This document shows, piece after piece, positions 11,156-25,733 of a stretch of 26,251 nucleotides of DNA. How positions within the stretch are numbered: the stretch's first letter is position 1; every line of letters starts with the position of its first letter. The stretch is from a virus. The position numbers and the translations under genes are program-made. Under the pieces are notes generated by a model. The model was not told the origin of the DNA and did no database searches. It saw nothing but the letters and a program-made list of their open reading frames with translations. The stretch is taken from positions 1 to 26,251 of IMG/VR virus record IMGVR_UViG_3300028361_000111. The stretch is one strand, 5' to 3'.

Positions 11156-11179
11156 GATCAGGGCAATAAAGCTTTGATC
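11156..11179 (+). promoter_or_regulatory. leader hairpin of first early gene
   Basis: GATCA (11156-11160) pairs with TGATC (11175-11179), plus one G-T pair, and lies about 10 nt after the -10. It is followed by a Shine-Dalgarno-free leader AAACAAAACATATG. It fits the recurring layout of this arm, in which a 5' hairpin precedes an A-rich leader. Confidence 0.4.
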
Positions 11180-11196
11180 GTAACAAAACAAAACAT

Positions 11197-11466
11197 ATGA
11201 CTATTAAAGATACATTATACAATGCAACCATGGACAAAACAACCTATACCCTAGAATATAACAATTCTAACAACTGGTACGCTATACGTGTTGAAAATGA
11301 TACTAAAAAAAGTGTTGCTATTGATTTTTTACACGTTATGCAAGCCGATGATAAAGCAGGGTTTAACACTAACAGGATAAAAGAAGGCAAGATCAAGTTT
11401 ACCAAAAATGATAATATATCATCAATGGTTACATTAAAAAAGATTATTCTATTATCGAAAGGATAA
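11197..11466 (+). CDS. hypothetical early protein (89 aa)
   Basis: An 89-residue protein, first gene behind the early promoter. It reads as a small alpha/beta protein (TTYTLEYNNSNNWYAIRVEN, then KSVAIDFLHVMQADDK) with a basic C-terminal helix (MVTLKKIILLSKG). It has no cysteines, signal or membrane segment. First genes of phage early operons are often host-takeover or anti-defence proteins, but nothing in the sequence shows which. Confidence 0.55.
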   Translation: MTIKDTLYNATMDKTTYTLEYNNSNNWYAIRVENDTKKSVAIDFLHVMQADDKAGFNTNRIKEGKIKFTKNDNISSMVTLKKIILLSKG

Positions 11467-11477
11467 TATCCAAGCCC

Positions 11478-11502
11478 TACGATATAAAAAATTTATATCG
11501 TA
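11478..11502 (+). promoter_or_regulatory. perfect 11-bp hairpin in intergenic leader
   Basis: TACGATATAAA, AAA loop, TTTATATCGTA, without mismatch. No T-run follows, so it is not a standard terminator. It sits 5 nt before a GTGC-N15-GCAC element (11507-11529) and the A-rich leader of the ArdC-like gene, so the two may act as one leader structure. Confidence 0.6.
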
Positions 11503-11506
11503 AAGC

Positions 11507-11541
11507 GTGCATATTATTAATAAACGCACAAAAATAAACAT
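11507..11541 (+). repeat. leader element copy 0 (GTGC-N15-GCAC box)
   Basis: GTGC, 15 A/T-rich bases including ATTATTAATAAAC, GCAC, then AAAAATAAACAT running into the ATG at 11542. It shares box spacing and leader with the copies at 13200, 13454, 14038 and 14871, but the upstream hairpin differs in sequence. Confidence 0.65.
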
Positions 11542-11778
11542 ATGAACAATTTCACGAAAGAAAACTATCAGGGCAAGAACGCTATCATCACGCTATCCAG
11601 TGGCTACGATCTAAATTTATGGGCTGGATTCGTACAATGGAAAGTTAACGGGTATCAAGTAAAGAAAGGCAGCAAAGGTACAAAGATCCAGATCGTATTT
11701 AAAAAGAAAAACGGTGACAAAGGTGTAGCATATAAAAGCATATTCAATATCGATCAAGTGGAAAAAATAAAATTATAA
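11542..11778 (+). CDS. stand-alone ArdC N-terminal-like domain (ssDNA-binding, antirestriction-type)
   Basis: A 78-residue protein that reads like the N-terminal ssDNA-binding domain of ArdC/DUF1738 antirestriction proteins. The family's ordered features are all present: NYQGKNAI (family 'f.G.Na'), then WAGFVQWKVNGYQVKKGSKG (family 'W.T..Q....G..V.KG.kgt'), then IQIVFKKK, and a closing SIFNIDQVE (family 'vFN..Q.e'). The C-terminal metallopeptidase domain of full ArdC is missing, so this is the domain alone. ArdC protects incoming ssDNA and blocks some restriction enzymes; a similar protective or DNA-binding role here is inferred. Its position near the early promoter fits early expression. Confidence 0.7.
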   Translation: MNNFTKENYQGKNAIITLSSGYDLNLWAGFVQWKVNGYQVKKGSKGTKIQIVFKKKNGDKGVAYKSIFNIDQVEKIKL

Positions 11779-12112: not shown

Positions 12113-12120
12113 TAAAACAG

Positions 12121-12145
12121 AGACTATAATATAGTCTTTTTTTTT
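12121..12145 (+). terminator. rho-independent terminator ending first early unit
   Basis: AGACTAT (12121-12127), AAT loop, ATAGTCT (12131-12137), followed by an uninterrupted T-run to 12145. The stem is a perfect 7-bp match and the run has nine Ts. It separates the first three early genes from the repeat-rich, gene-free stretch. Confidence 0.85.
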
Positions 12146-12198
12146 GCATATTTTCAATGATAAAAACAACGATAAAACTTGACAAAACAGGCTTGAGA

Positions 12199-12502
12199 GT
12201 AACACAGTAACACGTAATTTCATAAACTTTATTTTTTTTACGTTTTTCTTTTTTTTTAATATAGTTTTTTTTTAGTGATTCTTGTGTCACTGTGTCACTT
12301 TTTGCTCTATCTTGTTGTATATAGCCAAGATAGACGGTAACACAGAGAGTGACACAGAGTAACACAGGAATTACGTGTCACCAAAAATATAGCTCTCACA
12401 GGAATTGGTTTTTTTTTTTTTCATAATTTGCTATATACAGTTTTGTTATTTCATTGTATTGTACAGGCTTTTTGGTAAAAAGTGACACAGAAAGTGACAC
12501 AG
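12199..12502. repeat. GTRACACA iteron cluster (at least 10 copies)
   Basis: Plus-strand copies start at about 12199, 12207, 12338, 12350, 12359, 12482 and 12494. Minus-strand copies (TGTGTCAC) lie at 12283-12290, 12291-12298 and about 12375-12382. Copies 12199/12207 and 12283/12291 are spaced by exactly 8 bp, the others by 9-12 bp. The third position alternates G/A. The inner block runs from GGTAACACAG (12337) to CGTGTCACC (12382), so it is itself an inverted arrangement. Confidence 0.75.
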
Positions 12503-12535
12503 GAACGCCCCCACGCTATAGTATTTCTTACCCAC

Positions 12536-12567
12536 TCCAGATCATACCTTATGGCACTTTTTTATCA
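12536..12567 (+). repeat. 32-bp direct repeat, copy 1
   Basis: Begins TCCAGATCATACCTTATGG and ends CACTTTTTTATCA. It is identical over 32 bp to copy 2 at 12606-12637, with a 70-bp period. The spacer carries a partial third copy of the CACTTTTTTAT tail (12579-12589). Confidence 0.85.
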
Positions 12568-12605
12568 TTTAAAAAAACACTTTTTTATATACTTTTTTTT
12601 ACATT

Positions 12606-12637
12606 TCCAGATCATACCTTATGGCACTTTTTTATCA
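12606..12637 (+). repeat. 32-bp direct repeat, copy 2
   Basis: Identical to 12536-12567. It lies 41 bp upstream of the perfect DnaA box. Function is unknown; an initiator site or a transcription pause/termination cassette are possibilities. Confidence 0.85.
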
Positions 12638-12677
12638 GTAAAAATACATACAATATATATATAATAAAAGTATAAAC

Positions 12678-12686
12678 TTATCCACA
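12678..12686 (+). promoter_or_regulatory. perfect DnaA box
   Basis: TTATCCACA, an exact match to the bacterial DnaA-box consensus. It lies 18 bp upstream of the ACACC-type promoter at 12704, next to the iteron cluster. It could recruit host DnaA for replication or for promoter control. Confidence 0.6.
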
Positions 12687-12703
12687 TATTGATATTATAG
12701 TAT

Positions 12704-12730
12704 TTGACACCGACACCGATATAGTATAAG
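12704..12730 (+). promoter_or_regulatory. ACACC-type promoter 1
   Basis: Perfect -35 TTGACA (12704-12709) running into GACACCGACACCGA, then TATAAG at 12725 after a 15-bp spacer. The short spacer makes the -10 placement uncertain. Core and spacing match two other sites (14799, 25705). It should drive the small genes from 12780 on. Confidence 0.55.
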
Positions 12731-12779
12731 GTGTATATATAAGGTAATCAGATCTTATATAATAAAAAAAACAAAACAT

Positions 12780-13010: not shown

Positions 13011-13199
13011 ATGAAAAATACTTCACCTATCACTTTATCAATTATTATTCTTTTATCACTGATCTTATTCTTGCATGTACAAGGTATAAAAAACGATATT
13101 CAAATGGCTGATCTTAAAAAAGATCAGATCGAAAATTACGGAATGGAAATGCAATATAAAAATGACGCGTGTATCATACACGGGAATTGTAAAAAATAA
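13011..13199 (+). CDS. small single-pass membrane protein (62 aa)
   Basis: A 62-residue protein with an N-terminal hydrophobic segment, about residues 6-25 (ITLSIIILLSLILFLHVQGI), then a charged part and a C-terminal cysteine pair (DACIIHGNCKK). The short basic-free N-terminus and the segment length suit a membrane anchor or uncleaved signal with the Cys part outside. The next repeated leader starts at the base after its stop. Confidence 0.5.
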   Translation: MKNTSPITLSIIILLSLILFLHVQGIKNDIQMADLKKDQIENYGMEMQYKNDACIIHGNCKK

Positions 13200-13271
13200 T
13201 TAATACATGAGTACATACATATATTGTATTTACTAATGTGCAAATTATTAATAACCGCACAAAAAAAACAT
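13200..13271 (+). repeat. leader element copy 1
   Basis: Starts at the base after a stop codon with TTAATACATGAG, continues with ATACA-TATAT-TGTAT (5-bp hairpin), then GTGC-N15-GCAC, then an A-rich leader into the ATG at 13272. Nearly identical to the copies at 13454 and 14038. Confidence 0.85.
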
Positions 13272-13457
13272 ATGAATACATTTAACCAAGAAATAAAAAG
13301 ACAAGGTTTCAAGGCATATAAAAGCAATACTGGTTTTGTTGCATTTAGTATAACCGATCTATCCGTTAACAAGGACTGGCAGAAAATAGATTTTTGTCTA
13401 ACCTGCAACAATACTGGAAAAATAAGCAATAAAGAAAATTGTTTAAACTGTAATTAA
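13272..13457 (+). CDS. small paired-cysteine protein (61 aa)
   Basis: A 61-residue protein. The C-terminal half has FCLTCNNTGK and ENCLNCN, that is CxxC...CxxC, a likely zinc knuckle. The N-terminal half is basic (EIKRQGFKAYKSNTG). Start chosen at 13272 because it follows the repeated leader; an upstream in-frame ATG at 13224 would translate the repeat itself. Function is unknown; small zinc-ribbon phage proteins often bind nucleic acid or host RNA polymerase. Confidence 0.6.
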   Translation: MNTFNQEIKRQGFKAYKSNTGFVAFSITDLSVNKDWQKIDFCLTCNNTGKISNKENCLNCN

Positions 13458-13527
13458 TACATGAGTACATACATATATTGTATTTACTAATGTGCAAATT
13501 ATTAATAACCGCACTAAAAATAAACAT
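13454..13527 (+). repeat. leader element copy 2
   Basis: Begins within the stop of the preceding gene (TTAATACATGAG) and ends at the clamp-like gene's ATG. It contains the ATACA/TGTAT hairpin, GTGC-N15-GCAC and the CTAAAAATAAACAT leader. It matches copy 3 (14038) in all but a few positions. Confidence 0.85.
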
Positions 13528-14037
13528 ATGATAGATATTTCAAAATATACTTCAAAAACTACTATTAAAAAAGAATTAAATTATGTATACGTGCATGATA
13601 TAGGCGAACATCGTTACGCAGTGGCTACAGACAGTTTCAGGCTTGCAAGAGTACATTTAACAAGTGTATTATCTCAAAAAGTAAAAACAGGCTATTACAC
13701 AGCCAAGGCATGGAAAGAAGTAACAAAGATACTGAAAAAAAATGACGTAAAAAAAGCAAATGATCTTATCGAGATTGTAAACAAAGAAATGCTCAATGAT
13801 AAAGACATGACATTTCCAAAGTATGAGCAGATCTTGCCAAAGTTTGATGATGAGAATGAAGACTATACTTTCAAAGGTACAAGTACAATGAACGGAATTT
13901 TTTTAATTGATCTTATAAAAGATACTCAAAACAATTTAAAGCAGTTTGATTTTAGTAAAATAAAAGAAAATAAAAATATGATTATTTATGATTATGATGG
14001 ATCTATAATCTTAATTATGAAAATGAATAAAAAATAA
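13528..14037 (+). CDS. shortened DNA sliding-clamp-like protein (DnaN-like)
   Basis: A 169-residue protein. Residues 29-42 (RYAVATDSFRLARV) match the strongly conserved DnaN beta-clamp motif 'l.lvATDghRLa', and residues 95-104 (TFPKYEQILP) match the following clamp motif 'g.FPdy..viP'. The middle (GYYTAKAWKEVTKILKK) occupies the place of 'i.Pakal.el.kll'. The end (GSIILIMKMNKK) resembles the closing 'yLLMPMRL' strand. Bacterial clamps have about 370 residues in three domains; this has roughly one and a half, so it would have to assemble with more subunits or act as a decoy. It lies in the early arm with other replication genes. No clamp-loader gene is seen. Confidence 0.65.
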   Translation: MIDISKYTSKTTIKKELNYVYVHDIGEHRYAVATDSFRLARVHLTSVLSQKVKTGYYTAKAWKEVTKILKKNDVKKANDLIEIVNKEMLNDKDMTFPKYEQILPKFDDENEDYTFKGTSTMNGIFLIDLIKDTQNNLKQFDFSKIKENKNMIIYDYDGSIILIMKMNKK

Positions 14038-14111
14038 TTAATACATGAGTACATACATATATTGTATGTGCTAATGTGCAAATTATTAATAATCGCACTA
14101 AAAATAAACAT
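14038..14111 (+). repeat. leader element copy 3
   Basis: Same layout as copy 2, starting at the base after the clamp-like stop. Differences are TATGTG for TATTTA after the hairpin and AATC for AACC before GCAC. The second of these lies in the 15-nt loop, leaving both GTGC and GCAC intact. Confidence 0.85.
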
Positions 14112-14282
14112 ATGGAAAATATAAAAGACATTTTAGAAAAAGACGTAATGAATGACTGTAAACTATGCAAAAAAGATCTCAAGGGGGTTGTTGTCGCTGG
14201 AATATGTTTATTATGTTTCAGAGAATGGCAAAAATTTAACCCAAAGAAAACAACAAGTGATTTTATAAATAACTATAGATAA
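14112..14282 (+). CDS. small zinc-finger-like protein (56 aa)
   Basis: A 56-residue protein with two CxxC knuckles (CKLCKKDL at residues 16-23 and CLLC at about 32-35), giving a C4 zinc ribbon, flanked by charged helices (MENIKDILEKDV, REWQKFNPKKTTSDFINN). Start fixed by the repeated leader. A nucleic-acid or protein-binding adaptor is likely, but no specific family is recognised. Confidence 0.6.
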   Translation: MENIKDILEKDVMNDCKLCKKDLKGVVVAGICLLCFREWQKFNPKKTTSDFINNYR

Positions 14283-14340
14283 TTAGTAATCACAGAAAAA
14301 CAAAACAATTTTTTAGAAAATAATAACATTAAACAATAAT

Positions 14341-14613
14341 ATGAAAACAATCTTAGAAAACAAAAATATAAAGGTAACATATACCGAACATAACGGGAAA
14401 TGTATAACTATAGCAGATCTAAAAGACAAATATAACGAGCCAAGGGCATTTACTCAAAATATCAGAGGTATTGGCATTGGCAAGGCTGTTGCATTTATAG
14501 AACACCTTGCGACACTTGAAGACCTAAAAGACGGGTACACATTTACAGAAATTAAAAATATACTTGATGACAAGTTTAACTTAAAAACACATTACTATTG
14601 CGCAATGGACTAA
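14341..14613 (+). CDS. hypothetical early protein (90 aa)
   Basis: A 90-residue alpha/beta protein: NIKVTYTEHNGKCITIADLK, GIGIGKAVAFIEHLATLEDL and a helical C-terminus ending THYYCAMD. It has an ATAAT-ATG start 58 bp after the previous gene, without the repeated leader, so it is probably cotranscribed. The GIGIGKA stretch is glycine-rich but is not a P-loop. No family is recognised. Confidence 0.55.
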   Translation: MKTILENKNIKVTYTEHNGKCITIADLKDKYNEPRAFTQNIRGIGIGKAVAFIEHLATLEDLKDGYTFTEIKNILDDKFNLKTHYYCAMD

Positions 14614-14617
14614 TTAT

Positions 14618-14824
14618 ATGAAAATAACAAAAAAAGTAGTCTACGCAGTAGATTTTCAAGGAAAAAATGATGAGTTTAAGGGGGCTAAAGAGTTTCAGGA
14701 ATTTAAAGATTTAATTTATGATCTAGGACAGAAATATAATTCAGTACAGACATATCCTCAAGGTAATTTTGGTTATCTAGTAGAATGTACAGAACCGATT
14801 GACACCAACACCGACATAGTATAG
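14618..14824 (+). CDS. hypothetical early protein (68 aa) overlapping a promoter
   Basis: A 68-residue protein (KKVVYAVDFQGKNDEFKGAK, SVQTYPQGNFGYLVECTEPI) four bases after the previous stop. Its last eight codons (TNTDIV region) are also the -35 and operator-like repeat of the next promoter (14799-14827), so the end of the protein is shaped by regulatory DNA. Function is unknown. Confidence 0.55.
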   Translation: MKITKKVVYAVDFQGKNDEFKGAKEFQEFKDLIYDLGQKYNSVQTYPQGNFGYLVECTEPIDTNTDIV

Positions 14825-14827
14825 AAT
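14799..14827 (+). promoter_or_regulatory. ACACC-type promoter 2
   Basis: TTGACA (14799-14804), then CCAACACCGACATAG, with TATAGA at 15 bp and TAGAAT at 17 bp from the -35. It lies inside the 3' end of the upstream gene. A hairpin (GGGTAT with ATACCT, about 14852-14867) follows in the leader. Confidence 0.55.
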
Positions 14828-14851
14828 AGATAGTATAGTAGATACATAGCA

Positions 14852-14908
14852 GGGTATAAAATACCTTGCAATGTGCATATTATTATTAAACGCACTAAAA
14901 ATAAACAT
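14852..14908 (+). repeat. leader element copy 4 (diverged)
   Basis: A different 5' hairpin (GGGTAT-AAA-ATACCT, one G-T pair) precedes the conserved part: ATGTGC, a 15-base A/T loop, GCAC, then CTAAAAATAAACAT into the ATG at 14909. The hairpin position is kept while its sequence is replaced. Confidence 0.7.
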
Positions 14909-15295
14909 ATGACATATTCAGATTATAAAGAGGAGGTAACAGCAGAAAGAAATAAAATAATGACAAAACACGGAGTTTTTTGGGCTTTTGGGCAGGATAG
15001 TTTCAGAAAACAGTTTGACGCTTTGAATTTACCAAAGGGCGAGAAAGTGGCAAGTATTGGGGCAGGTGGATATTTACCAAGTAAAAACTTTGACCAGTGG
15101 CTTGAGGAATTAAACAAAGTTAAGAAATTTACAGGTGATCGAGTACAGGCTATTAAATACGAATTGAATAACCATGAGTATAAGATATCAATGGATCCCG
15201 AGCAATGTATCGAAACAGTCTTCGAGATTATAGACGCTTGTACCGATGGTATATCCCTTGATCTAGTAAAGGAAGTAGCAAGGTATAAAGGCTAG
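14909..15295 (+). CDS. conserved-type phage hypothetical protein (128 aa)
   Basis: A 128-residue protein. HGVFWAFGQDSFRKQFDALN, followed by KVASIGAGGYLPSKN, and YELNNHEYKISMDPEQ resemble small phage proteins of unknown function with 'ffAFs..qf', 'ig.Ggyi' and 'yEl.NHE' motifs, in the direction of the DUF7659-type family; the family name is from memory and uncertain. The start is fixed by the repeated leader. It is soluble, with no signal peptide. Expression should come from the promoter at 14799. Confidence 0.6.
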   Translation: MTYSDYKEEVTAERNKIMTKHGVFWAFGQDSFRKQFDALNLPKGEKVASIGAGGYLPSKNFDQWLEELNKVKKFTGDRVQAIKYELNNHEYKISMDPEQCIETVFEIIDACTDGISLDLVKEVARYKG

Positions 15296-15374
15296 TTATT
15301 ACATGAGTACATACATATATTGTATGCACTAATGTGCTAATTATTATAAAGCTAGGCACAAGCTAAAAAAACGT
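15296..15374 (+). repeat. leader element copy 5
   Basis: TTATTACATGAG start, intact ATACA/TGTAT hairpin, then GTGC, an 18-base loop, GCAC and an altered leader (AAGCTAAAAAAACGT) into the ATG at 15375. The 3-nt longer loop (AAGCTAG) is the main change in the family. Confidence 0.75.
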
Positions 15375-15626
15375 ATGAAACAATATTTTATAACATATAA
15401 CCTTGACCAAAGTACAGATCAAAAAAAGATATATATTACAGGTGTATATATGAGTGGAGAACCAGTAGCCAAGATAGATAGAGCTATGATGAGATTTAAA
15501 AATAAACTAGAAACAGATCATAAAATGATACTAGAATATACCCCCTTATCAGAACTAAAAGATTTAAGAACGCATAAAAAGGGTGGAAAAGTAATAACAT
15601 TTACTCAAACATTTAACGTAAAATAA
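15375..15626 (+). CDS. hypothetical early protein (83 aa)
   Basis: An 83-residue, basic alpha/beta protein: QYFITYNLDQSTDQKKIYIT, AMMRFKNKLETDHKMILEYT, KVITFTQTFNVK. Start set by the leader element. The layout of strands around one basic helix is that of many small phage inhibitors and nucleic-acid binders, but no family can be named. Confidence 0.55.
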   Translation: MKQYFITYNLDQSTDQKKIYITGVYMSGEPVAKIDRAMMRFKNKLETDHKMILEYTPLSELKDLRTHKKGGKVITFTQTFNVK

Positions 15627-18601: not shown

Positions 18602-19112
18602 TCTAAGAAAAGCACTACAGAAGATAAACCATGCTTGTGGGGATTGTGGGGGAGATGGTTGGATGTTTTCTAAAGAAGAACTAGAAAAAGGTAACCCTTG
18701 TATTAAAATAGATTGCAAAACCTGTTCAGGTACAGGAATAGTTATACCTTTGGAGTTTGGTTGTGAGGTGAAAGTACAATTAGATGAAAAAGAAATAGCT
18801 ACACAGGTTGTACAATGGATAGATGAATCTCAATATGAGTTAGGTATTATAGTTGAATGTGAAGAGTATGAAGTTTCTGTAATACCTACAGTAGACTTTA
18901 TGACGGTACTCGGTAAACCATCTACCCTACAAGACCTGTTGATTGCATTGGGAAATATATCAGAGTGGACTCAAGAACTTAAATTACATGAAGGATATTT
19001 ATTTTATGAACATGGTAAATATGAAAATAATCCAATAATTATAGACCTATCCAAAACAGTAGAAACACAAACGCAAGAGGTAATTAATCAGCTAATAAAA
19101 CTACTATCATGA
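18594..19112 (+). CDS. DnaJ-type zinc-finger-containing protein (172 aa)
   Basis: A 172-residue protein starting MNNLRKALQK at ATG 18594, inside the previous gene's end. CGDCGGDG and CKTCSGTG are two copies of the CxxCxGxG motif of the DnaJ cysteine-rich domain, here two instead of four, enough for one zinc site. The J domain is absent. The middle has LDEKEIATQVVQWIDESQYE, then VIPTVDFMTVLGKPST. The end (SKTVETQTQEVINQLIKLL) is repeated almost exactly by the 30-residue gene at 19377. Possible nucleic-acid or chaperone-type binding; not shown. Confidence 0.6.
   Translation: MNNLRKALQKINHACGDCGGDGWMFSKEELEKGNPCIKIDCKTCSGTGIVIPLEFGCEVKVQLDEKEIATQVVQWIDESQYELGIIVECEEYEVSVIPTVDFMTVLGKPSTLQDLLIALGNISEWTQELKLHEGYLFYEHGKYENNPIIIDLSKTVETQTQEVINQLIKLLS
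19047..19097 (+). repeat. 51-bp direct repeat, copy 1
   Basis: A block from CTATCCAAAACAGTAGAAAC to CAGCTAATA, identical to 19404-19454 (offset 357 bp). Similarity continues with scattered changes to each gene's stop. It encodes the shared C-terminal helix. Confidence 0.85.
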
Positions 19113-19384: not shown

Positions 19385-19469
19385 CCACGTAACAATCATA
19401 GAGCTATCCAAAACAGTAGAAACACAAACGCAAGAGGTAATTAATCAGCTAATAGAACTATTGAAATGA
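19377..19469 (+). CDS. 30-residue gene remnant of the DnaJ-zinc-finger gene
   Basis: Starts MNNHVTIIEL and continues SKTVETQTQEVINQLIELLK to TGA at 19467-19469. It keeps the first three residues and the last 25 or so of the 18594 product, and lacks all between, including the zinc motifs. It still overlaps its neighbours by ATG-stop junctions, so it may be translated as a minimal helix. Confidence 0.5.
   Translation: MNNHVTIIELSKTVETQTQEVINQLIELLK
19404..19454 (+). repeat. 51-bp direct repeat, copy 2
   Basis: Identical to 19047-19097. Together they bracket the 91-residue gene at 19109. Confidence 0.85.
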
Positions 19470-25702: not shown

Positions 25703-25704
25703 AT

Positions 25705-25733
25705 TTGACACCTACACCGACACAATATATACT
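25705..25733 (+). promoter_or_regulatory. ACACC-type promoter 3
   Basis: TTGACA (25705-25710), a 17-bp spacer with CCTACACCGACACAA, then TATACT (25728-25733). This is the best sigma70-like pair in the window. It lies just after the nuclease stop and should drive the two small genes that follow. Confidence 0.65.

Follow-up and report, generated by a model that had tools for sequence, protein, structure and literature searches.

Why are mutually unrelated early genes of one virus preceded, again and again, by the same short intergenic sequence? The question is raised by virus record IMGVR_UViG_3300028361_000111, whose 26,251 bases are henceforth referred to as the window. A first-pass annotation had noted the repeated leaders and regarded them as a common RNA or operator element of the early genes.

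Results

The virus and its early region

Head and packaging genes (terminase, portal and others) lie on the - strand of the window up to ~10,770, while the + strand from 11,197 carries early and replication genes encoding ArdC N-terminal-like, sliding-clamp-like, methyltransferase-like, primase/helicase and SNF2-type helicase proteins. A search of phage isolate records with the window DNA gave no match, and the nearest isolate terminases share ~31% protein identity with that of the window. IMG/VR holds more than 100 relatives of this phage, most of them at 62-71% terminase identity. One close relative, L006, has a terminase 99% identical to that of the window (L007 is a duplicate record of L006), and L006 alone was matched when the sliding-clamp-like protein was used as search query. 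A GTDB terminase search for a host returned one Dehalococcoidia MAG contig, a match that may be a binning error. A Bacteroidota host, suggested by the A-rich starts, was unsupported; near-consensus TTGACA/TATAAT promoters occur in the window and its relatives. A tRNA scan of the window found none.

Repeated leaders between early genes

Six leaders were located in the window, all on the + strand and all in the early operon (Table 1). As first described, every copy contains GTGC...GCAC, with a 15-nt loop at 11507, 13238, 13492, 14076 and 14873 and an 18-nt loop at 15334, and the leaders at 13200, 13454, 14038 and 15296 are near-identical. The latter four had been said to extend from the upstream stop codon to the downstream ATG; they do begin at the upstream stop, but end 11-15 nt short of the ATG, where an A-rich start region follows. 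The copies at 14871 and 11507 keep the 3' half by sequence, as claimed, but have not lost a 5' half, since another hairpin stands in the same place. The leaders fill gaps of 70-84 nt, compared with 1-12 nt in front of most neighbouring early genes that have none. Their 3' ends read CGCACTAAAAATAAACATATG or close variants. Five further copies were found in L006, giving 11 in total.

The genes behind the leaders are mutually unrelated. Gene 11542-11778 is ArdC N-terminal-like (Pfam ArdcN, E 8e-11), gene 13528-14037 is sliding-clamp-like, with weak clamp matches, and gene 14909-15295 is DUF7659. The first 15 nt of the copies at 13200 and 13454 are TAATTAATACATGA, which contains stop codons in all three frames, a feature that would be useful at a cassette boundary.

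Table 1 Positions of leaders and associated features in the window.
Feature	Position	Strand	Description
Leader copy 1	11467..11541	+	Variant 5' hairpin TACGATATAAA/TTTATATCGTA (11 bp), GTGC-15 nt-GCAC; before gene 11542-11778
Leader copy 2	13200..13271	+	Between genes 13011-13199 and 13272-13457
Leader copy 3	13454..13527	+	Contains the stop codon of the upstream gene (13455-13457); before gene 13528-14037
Leader copy 4	14038..14111	+	P1 14042-14046/14074-14078, P2 14048-14057/14063-14072, P3 14076-14079/14095-14098
Leader copy 5	14835..14908	+	P2 is GCAGGGTAT/ATACCTTGC, P1 UACAU/AUGUG kept; before gene 14909-15295
Leader copy 6	15296..15374	+	P3 loop of 18 nt; before gene 15375-15626
Sigma-70-type promoter	14799..14827	+	Predicted, TTGACA-17-TAGAAT; runs straight into leader copy 5
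Unrelated 9-bp hairpin	11156..11179	+	Leader of gene 11197, then A-rich start; fold z -4.1, 0/200 shuffles
Unrelated 10-bp hairpin	12736..12761	+	Leader of gene 12780, with the promoter-like sequence at 12702 lying upstream; fold z -2.8

Folded structure of the leaders

The best-supported helix is P2, a hairpin of 9-11 bp upstream of GTGC/GCAC that is folded in every copy. A 5' hairpin of changing sequence and fixed position had already been placed before each GTGC, and this description held, although the stem ATACA/TGTAT had been drawn too short. Around P2 an outer stem of 5 bp, P1, can form by pairing UACAU with AUGUG in nine of the 11 copies, using the GTG of GTGC, and CAAGY with RCGUG, with a mismatch, in the remaining two. 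P1 (~5 bp) and P2 are separated by a 1x1 or 2x2 internal loop, and one P1 pair changes from C-G to U-A between the copies at 11507 in the window and 7200 in L006.

P2 keeps its pairing while its letters change. Three of its pairs were changed on both sides and 97.8% of cells were paired in the seven copies that could be held in register (alignment A6), and its covariation score exceeded 500/500 shuffles and all slid versions; with these seven copies amounting to six distinct, related sequences, the P2 covariation is by itself modest. Covariation was counted on the in-register copies only, and MAFFT alignments including the copies at 14871 and 11507 put the hairpins out of register. Across the window and L006, P2 is swapped wholesale for three unrelated helices in the same place. 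Identity between the two genomes is 83-87% for leaders (94% for copy 6) against 93-99% for flanking genes, and the leaders are still folded.

The GTGC/GCAC stem (P3), to which the first-pass annotation gave most weight, is present and can form but is not the best-supported helix. It is invariant in 11/11 copies and therefore has no covariation support. P3 shares GUG with P1, so that the two stems are mutually alternative, and the energies of P1+P2 and P2+P3 differ by 0.2-1.9 kcal/mol in 11/11 copies. The P1 form was the MFE fold in 8-9 of these copies and the P3 form in three, including that at 13200 at near-equal energy. The most conserved stretch is the 3' part, in which GTGC, ATTATTA and GCAC are invariant in 11 copies around a loop of 14, 15 or 18 nt. 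Genes 11197 and 12780 have leaders with the same layout as the repeated ones and with unrelated hairpin sequences (Table 1).

Distribution of the sequence family and leaders in relatives

A covariance-model search, which had been proposed as a check, was carried out with a model trained on the four near-identical window copies and three L006 copies. The training copies scored E about 1e-13 to 1e-16; copies outside the training set scored 1e-4 (window 14839), 3e-6 and 0.02 (L006) and 0.07 (window 11467). Over 64 sources, including ~60 other related contigs, the model matched only the window, L006 and the duplicate L007. A scan of 2.9 million viral contigs for GTGCNNATTATTNNTAANNGCAC returned L006 and L007 only, and because scan and model found the same contigs only, the leader sequence family is private. 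Rfam 15 gave no match at the gathering threshold, and relaxing the limit to E 5 brought up no family at the leaders. Literature searches on this phage group turned up no account of leaders of this kind.

Relatives at 62-71% terminase identity have their own hairpin leaders in the early operon, with sequences unrelated to those of the window. Such leaders were seen in L062, L045, L056, L049, L065, L036 and L117, most of them occurring more than once per genome. Seven copies (CCAGTTAGAGAGC...) are present in L062, where P1 and P3 compete in their own way, CAGU-ACUG-CAG; the counted P1 and P2 pairs of L062 show no double changes, and the support comes from fold z-scores and P3. The leaders of L045 and L117 have TAGACGG...CCGCTTA in common, whose TAG terminates the upstream gene, and L056, L049, L065 and L036 have further kinds.

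Selection on RNA or on DNA was compared in 28 related contigs. Among 66 structured early intergenic stretches, the sense strand folded better in 51 and worse in 15 (shuffle-corrected, Wilcoxon p 3e-7). Distinct helices contained 24 G-T against 8 A-C pairs (p 0.007), with 11 genomes favouring G-T and two favouring A-C. These p-values (3e-7 and 0.007) are optimistic, in that copies from one genome cannot count as independent and terminators make up some of the stretches. Structured gaps occur on the late strand as well, with z<-2 in 27% against 43% for early gaps, and some of these are terminators. Both strand tests, by folding energy and by G-T versus A-C pairs, favour selection on RNA and not a DNA operator. 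The RNA half of the original proposal is thus upheld, as structure is kept, letters change and the sense strand is favoured, and its operator half is not favoured.

Overlap of three strands

Of 34 elements with a P1, 13 allow the 3' strand of P1 to pair downstream as well, compared with 4.3 expected after shuffling of the downstream part. At least one element with such an overlap was present in 8/19 genomes with a P1, and six of the 13 overlapping elements are copies within L062. A looser test (13 against 0.47) was too generous, and the conditional test (13 against 4.3) is the one to trust; the overlap criterion was chosen after the window had been seen, and the enrichment is suggestive. The alternative folds of L062, whose sequence is unrelated to the window, differ by 0.4-1.1 kcal/mol, and the sequences of its P3 show inner pairs changed on both sides. 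L045 has no clear P3. The P1 strand begins 1-5 nt past the stop codon in the window and L062, and the stop codon lies inside P1 in L045 and L117.

Transcription signals

No promoter was predicted inside any leader copy, and no terminator-like site was found on the + strand at any copy, with no T run after P2 or P3. An intrinsic terminator, which would have a G+C-rich stem followed by a T run, was accordingly rejected for the leaders. Since the predicted promoter at 14799-14827 leads directly into copy 5, a predicted transcript would start with this copy. The 5' leaders that follow predicted promoters in relatives mostly lack structure (mean z -0.35), a noisy comparison in which many promoter matches are chance or lie inside genes. 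A repeated promoter-like sequence, TTGACACCNACACCGA.ATA.TATA, occurs in the window at 12702-12728, 14797-14823 and 25703-25729 and has exact matches in other contigs of the phage group; its spacer, CACCGACACCGA, may be an operator.

Gene cassettes and breakpoints

Blocks of the window/L006 alignment end at the leader edges 11460, 13275/13451 and 15366/15382. One gene and one leader at 13275/13451 are present in the window only, and one gene at 15366/15382 is present in L006 only. Another block begins at the promoter, at 14798, and one breaks 36-39 nt inside gene 14112. The leaders had been proposed as homology blocks that could let gene cassettes be exchanged; the breakpoints at leader edges support this idea, and their pattern would fit exchange or loss through recombination between leaders. 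If leaders do mark cassette edges, they would help to explain the interchangeability of phage early regions. In the gene pair L006:4599-4835 (-) and window 14112-14282, both members of which follow a leader, ~12 N-terminal residues are common and the remainder is wholly different, placing the junction just inside the gene.

Discussion

Comparison with described elements

Start-associated elements that recur in a genome have already been described in a few actinobacterial phages. Of described kinds, the closest to the leaders are the start-associated sequences (SAS) and extended SAS (ESAS) of Cluster K mycobacteriophages, with similar motifs in Microbacterium Cluster EF phages (PMC3203893, PMC7302621, PMC11373665). 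The SAS is a 13-bp motif, GGGATAGGAGCCC, with a Shine-Dalgarno core, located 3-7 bp before the start (PMC3203893, PMC7302621, PMC11373665). Departures among ESAS repeats do not support RNA pairing (PMC3203893), and a later paper places promoters in the ESAS (PMC11373665). The present leaders are likewise repeated, start-associated and in one orientation, upstream of unrelated non-structural genes; they too combine a conserved 3' part near the start with an upstream inverted repeat that differs between subgroups, and in both systems some copies are without the usual upstream part. Unlike the SAS, no leader copy contains the Shine-Dalgarno-like AGGAG or the 13-bp motif, and unlike the ESAS, for which a DNA-binding site or promoter has been proposed, the leaders keep their pairing by compensating changes and favour the sense strand. 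Hosts and sequences are unrelated. The leaders are a different variant of the same general kind, set apart from SAS/ESAS by motif and pairing.

The early genes of phage T7 are separated by RNase III processing sites, which the leaders resemble in lying between the stop and start of early genes and in their plan: T7 intercistronic regions, folded by the same procedure as the leaders, show an upper stem of 9-10 bp, an internal loop and a lower stem. Upper-stem sequence is kept between T7 copies, whereas the leader stem changes freely. The paired region has 15-16 pairs in most leaders, which is probably shorter than in the T7 sites, where about two helical turns of paired RNA would be expected, and about 20 pairs in copy 5. 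Cluster O mycobacteriophages carry 17-bp dyad repeats with invariant arms, many of them inside genes and without orientation, for which a dimeric DNA-binding protein has been proposed (PMC4351075). The leaders share with these repeats their many intergenic dyads (PMC4351075). Unlike them, the leaders have variable arms and are intergenic and oriented throughout. Integron attC sites have the outer boxes GTTRRRY/RYYYAAC; the outer strands of the leaders are UACAU/AUGUG or CAAGY/RCGUG, and an attC site was rejected.

Proposed function and alternatives

The structure of the leaders is supported, and from it we infer a function in the separation of cassettes at the mRNA level. In the preferred reading, held at a probability of roughly 0.45, the element is a modular structured mRNA leader that heads early-operon cassettes, with an independent hairpin, an open A-rich start and probably a role in mRNA processing or stability. 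In the transcript, a self-contained P2 (9-11 bp) with its outer P1 would fold just downstream of the upstream stop codon, leaving the A-rich translation start next to the ATG open. By analogy with the T7 RNase III sites, the hairpin would separate the cassette from its neighbours, its likeliest role being a structure-specific one in processing and stability, and would also prevent upstream sequence from pairing with the start region. GTGC/GCAC would serve as a second or alternative fold, which may form after cleavage, or a ribosome at the stop codon upstream, has opened P1. Separation at the mRNA level is favoured because P2 is selected for pairing and not for sequence and because its plan resembles the T7 intercistronic sites. 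Weighing against processing are P1+P2 of only about 15-17 bp in most copies, less than a classical two-turn RNase III substrate, and the upper-stem sequence, kept at T7 sites and not here. Copy 5, at the 5' end of a predicted transcript, has nothing upstream to cut off, a general role as 5'-end stabiliser is at odds with the mostly unstructured promoter-led leaders of relatives, and structured gaps are found on the late strand too.

The competition between P1 and P3 could instead make the leader a bistable switch that responds to the ribosome finishing translation of the upstream gene. AUGUGC would pair either with the post-stop strand or with GCAC, and by covering the P1 strand, a ribosome at the stop would force P3 and so couple translation of both genes. 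Small energy gaps (in the 11 copies and in L062), strand overlap in 8/19 genomes, a P1 strand that starts near or includes the stop, and the doubly changed inner P3 pairs of L062 agree with such a switch; nevertheless it is unlikely, as the ATG region of the window copies stays uncovered in both states, the enrichment shrinks under the stricter control, draws six of its 13 elements from L062 and uses a post hoc criterion, L045 has no clear P3, and the predicted transcript that begins at copy 5 contains no translated gene ahead of that copy. It is rather doubtful that the whole group shares a three-strand switch in which post-stop and pre-start strands compete for a middle strand, the terminating ribosome or hairpin cleavage sets the state of the next leader, and sequences turn over while the plan stays. 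Invariance of GTGC, ATTATTA and GCAC despite differing loop lengths, in front of unrelated genes, is what would be expected if a phage or host protein or a small RNA recognised GTGC-WNATTATTA-GCAC and controlled the leader-bearing early genes together. This account has a low probability as well: no regulator was found, P2 loops and stems are not conserved, the 3' conservation may merely reflect recent spread of the copies, and the conserved part is absent from other contigs, so that the partner would differ from phage to phage.

A DNA-level element of the type now proposed for the Cluster K ESAS, either a promoter within the leader or a dyad-symmetric operator bound by a repressor, would account for an inverted repeat at a fixed place and for the AT-rich 3' part, and ESAS of phage Adephagia do hold SigA-like promoters with an inverted repeat (PMC11373665). 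It is improbable here, given that the sense-strand folding bias and the excess of G-T over A-C pairs are not expected of DNA sites, that P2 differs wholly between copies of one genome and so keeps no -35 box or operator, and that the one strong promoter close to a copy (14799-14827) precedes the leader and is not contained in it. Least of all would the leaders be mainly a recombination element for moving cassettes, either a homology block that spreads or, like an integron attC, a site that folds as single-stranded DNA. The breakpoints at 11460, 13275, 13451 and 15366/15382 coincide with leader edges, but ordinary homologous recombination between near-identical leaders explains them; the GTT...AAC outer boxes are absent, the ORFs of the window showed no integrase gene, and the strand bias points to RNA. 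In this phage group, which has no close isolate among the records searched, selection on the element as RNA structure is plain to see, and each lineage has rebuilt it from new sequence. Selection on RNA structure makes its role, be it in processing, stability, translation start or switching, accessible to mutate-and-restore tests.

Other features of the window and its relatives

Terminase matches in five relatives (L100:1462-3978, L105:2051-4444, L112:4628-7174, L113:2198-4594 and L115:5563-8106) span ~2.4-2.5 kb compared to 1.7 kb, as if an intron or intein split the gene. The non-coding gap at 12113-12779 of the window holds two 39-nt copies of TCCAGATCATACCTTATGGCACTTTTTTATC (12536-12574 and 12606-12644; 95% identical, 70 nt apart) together with many GTGACACAG/TAACACAG-like repeats, and may be an origin or control region. 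A direct repeat of 79 nt with 90% identity was also observed at 19034-19112 and 19391-19469 of the window, at the ends of two adjoining genes.
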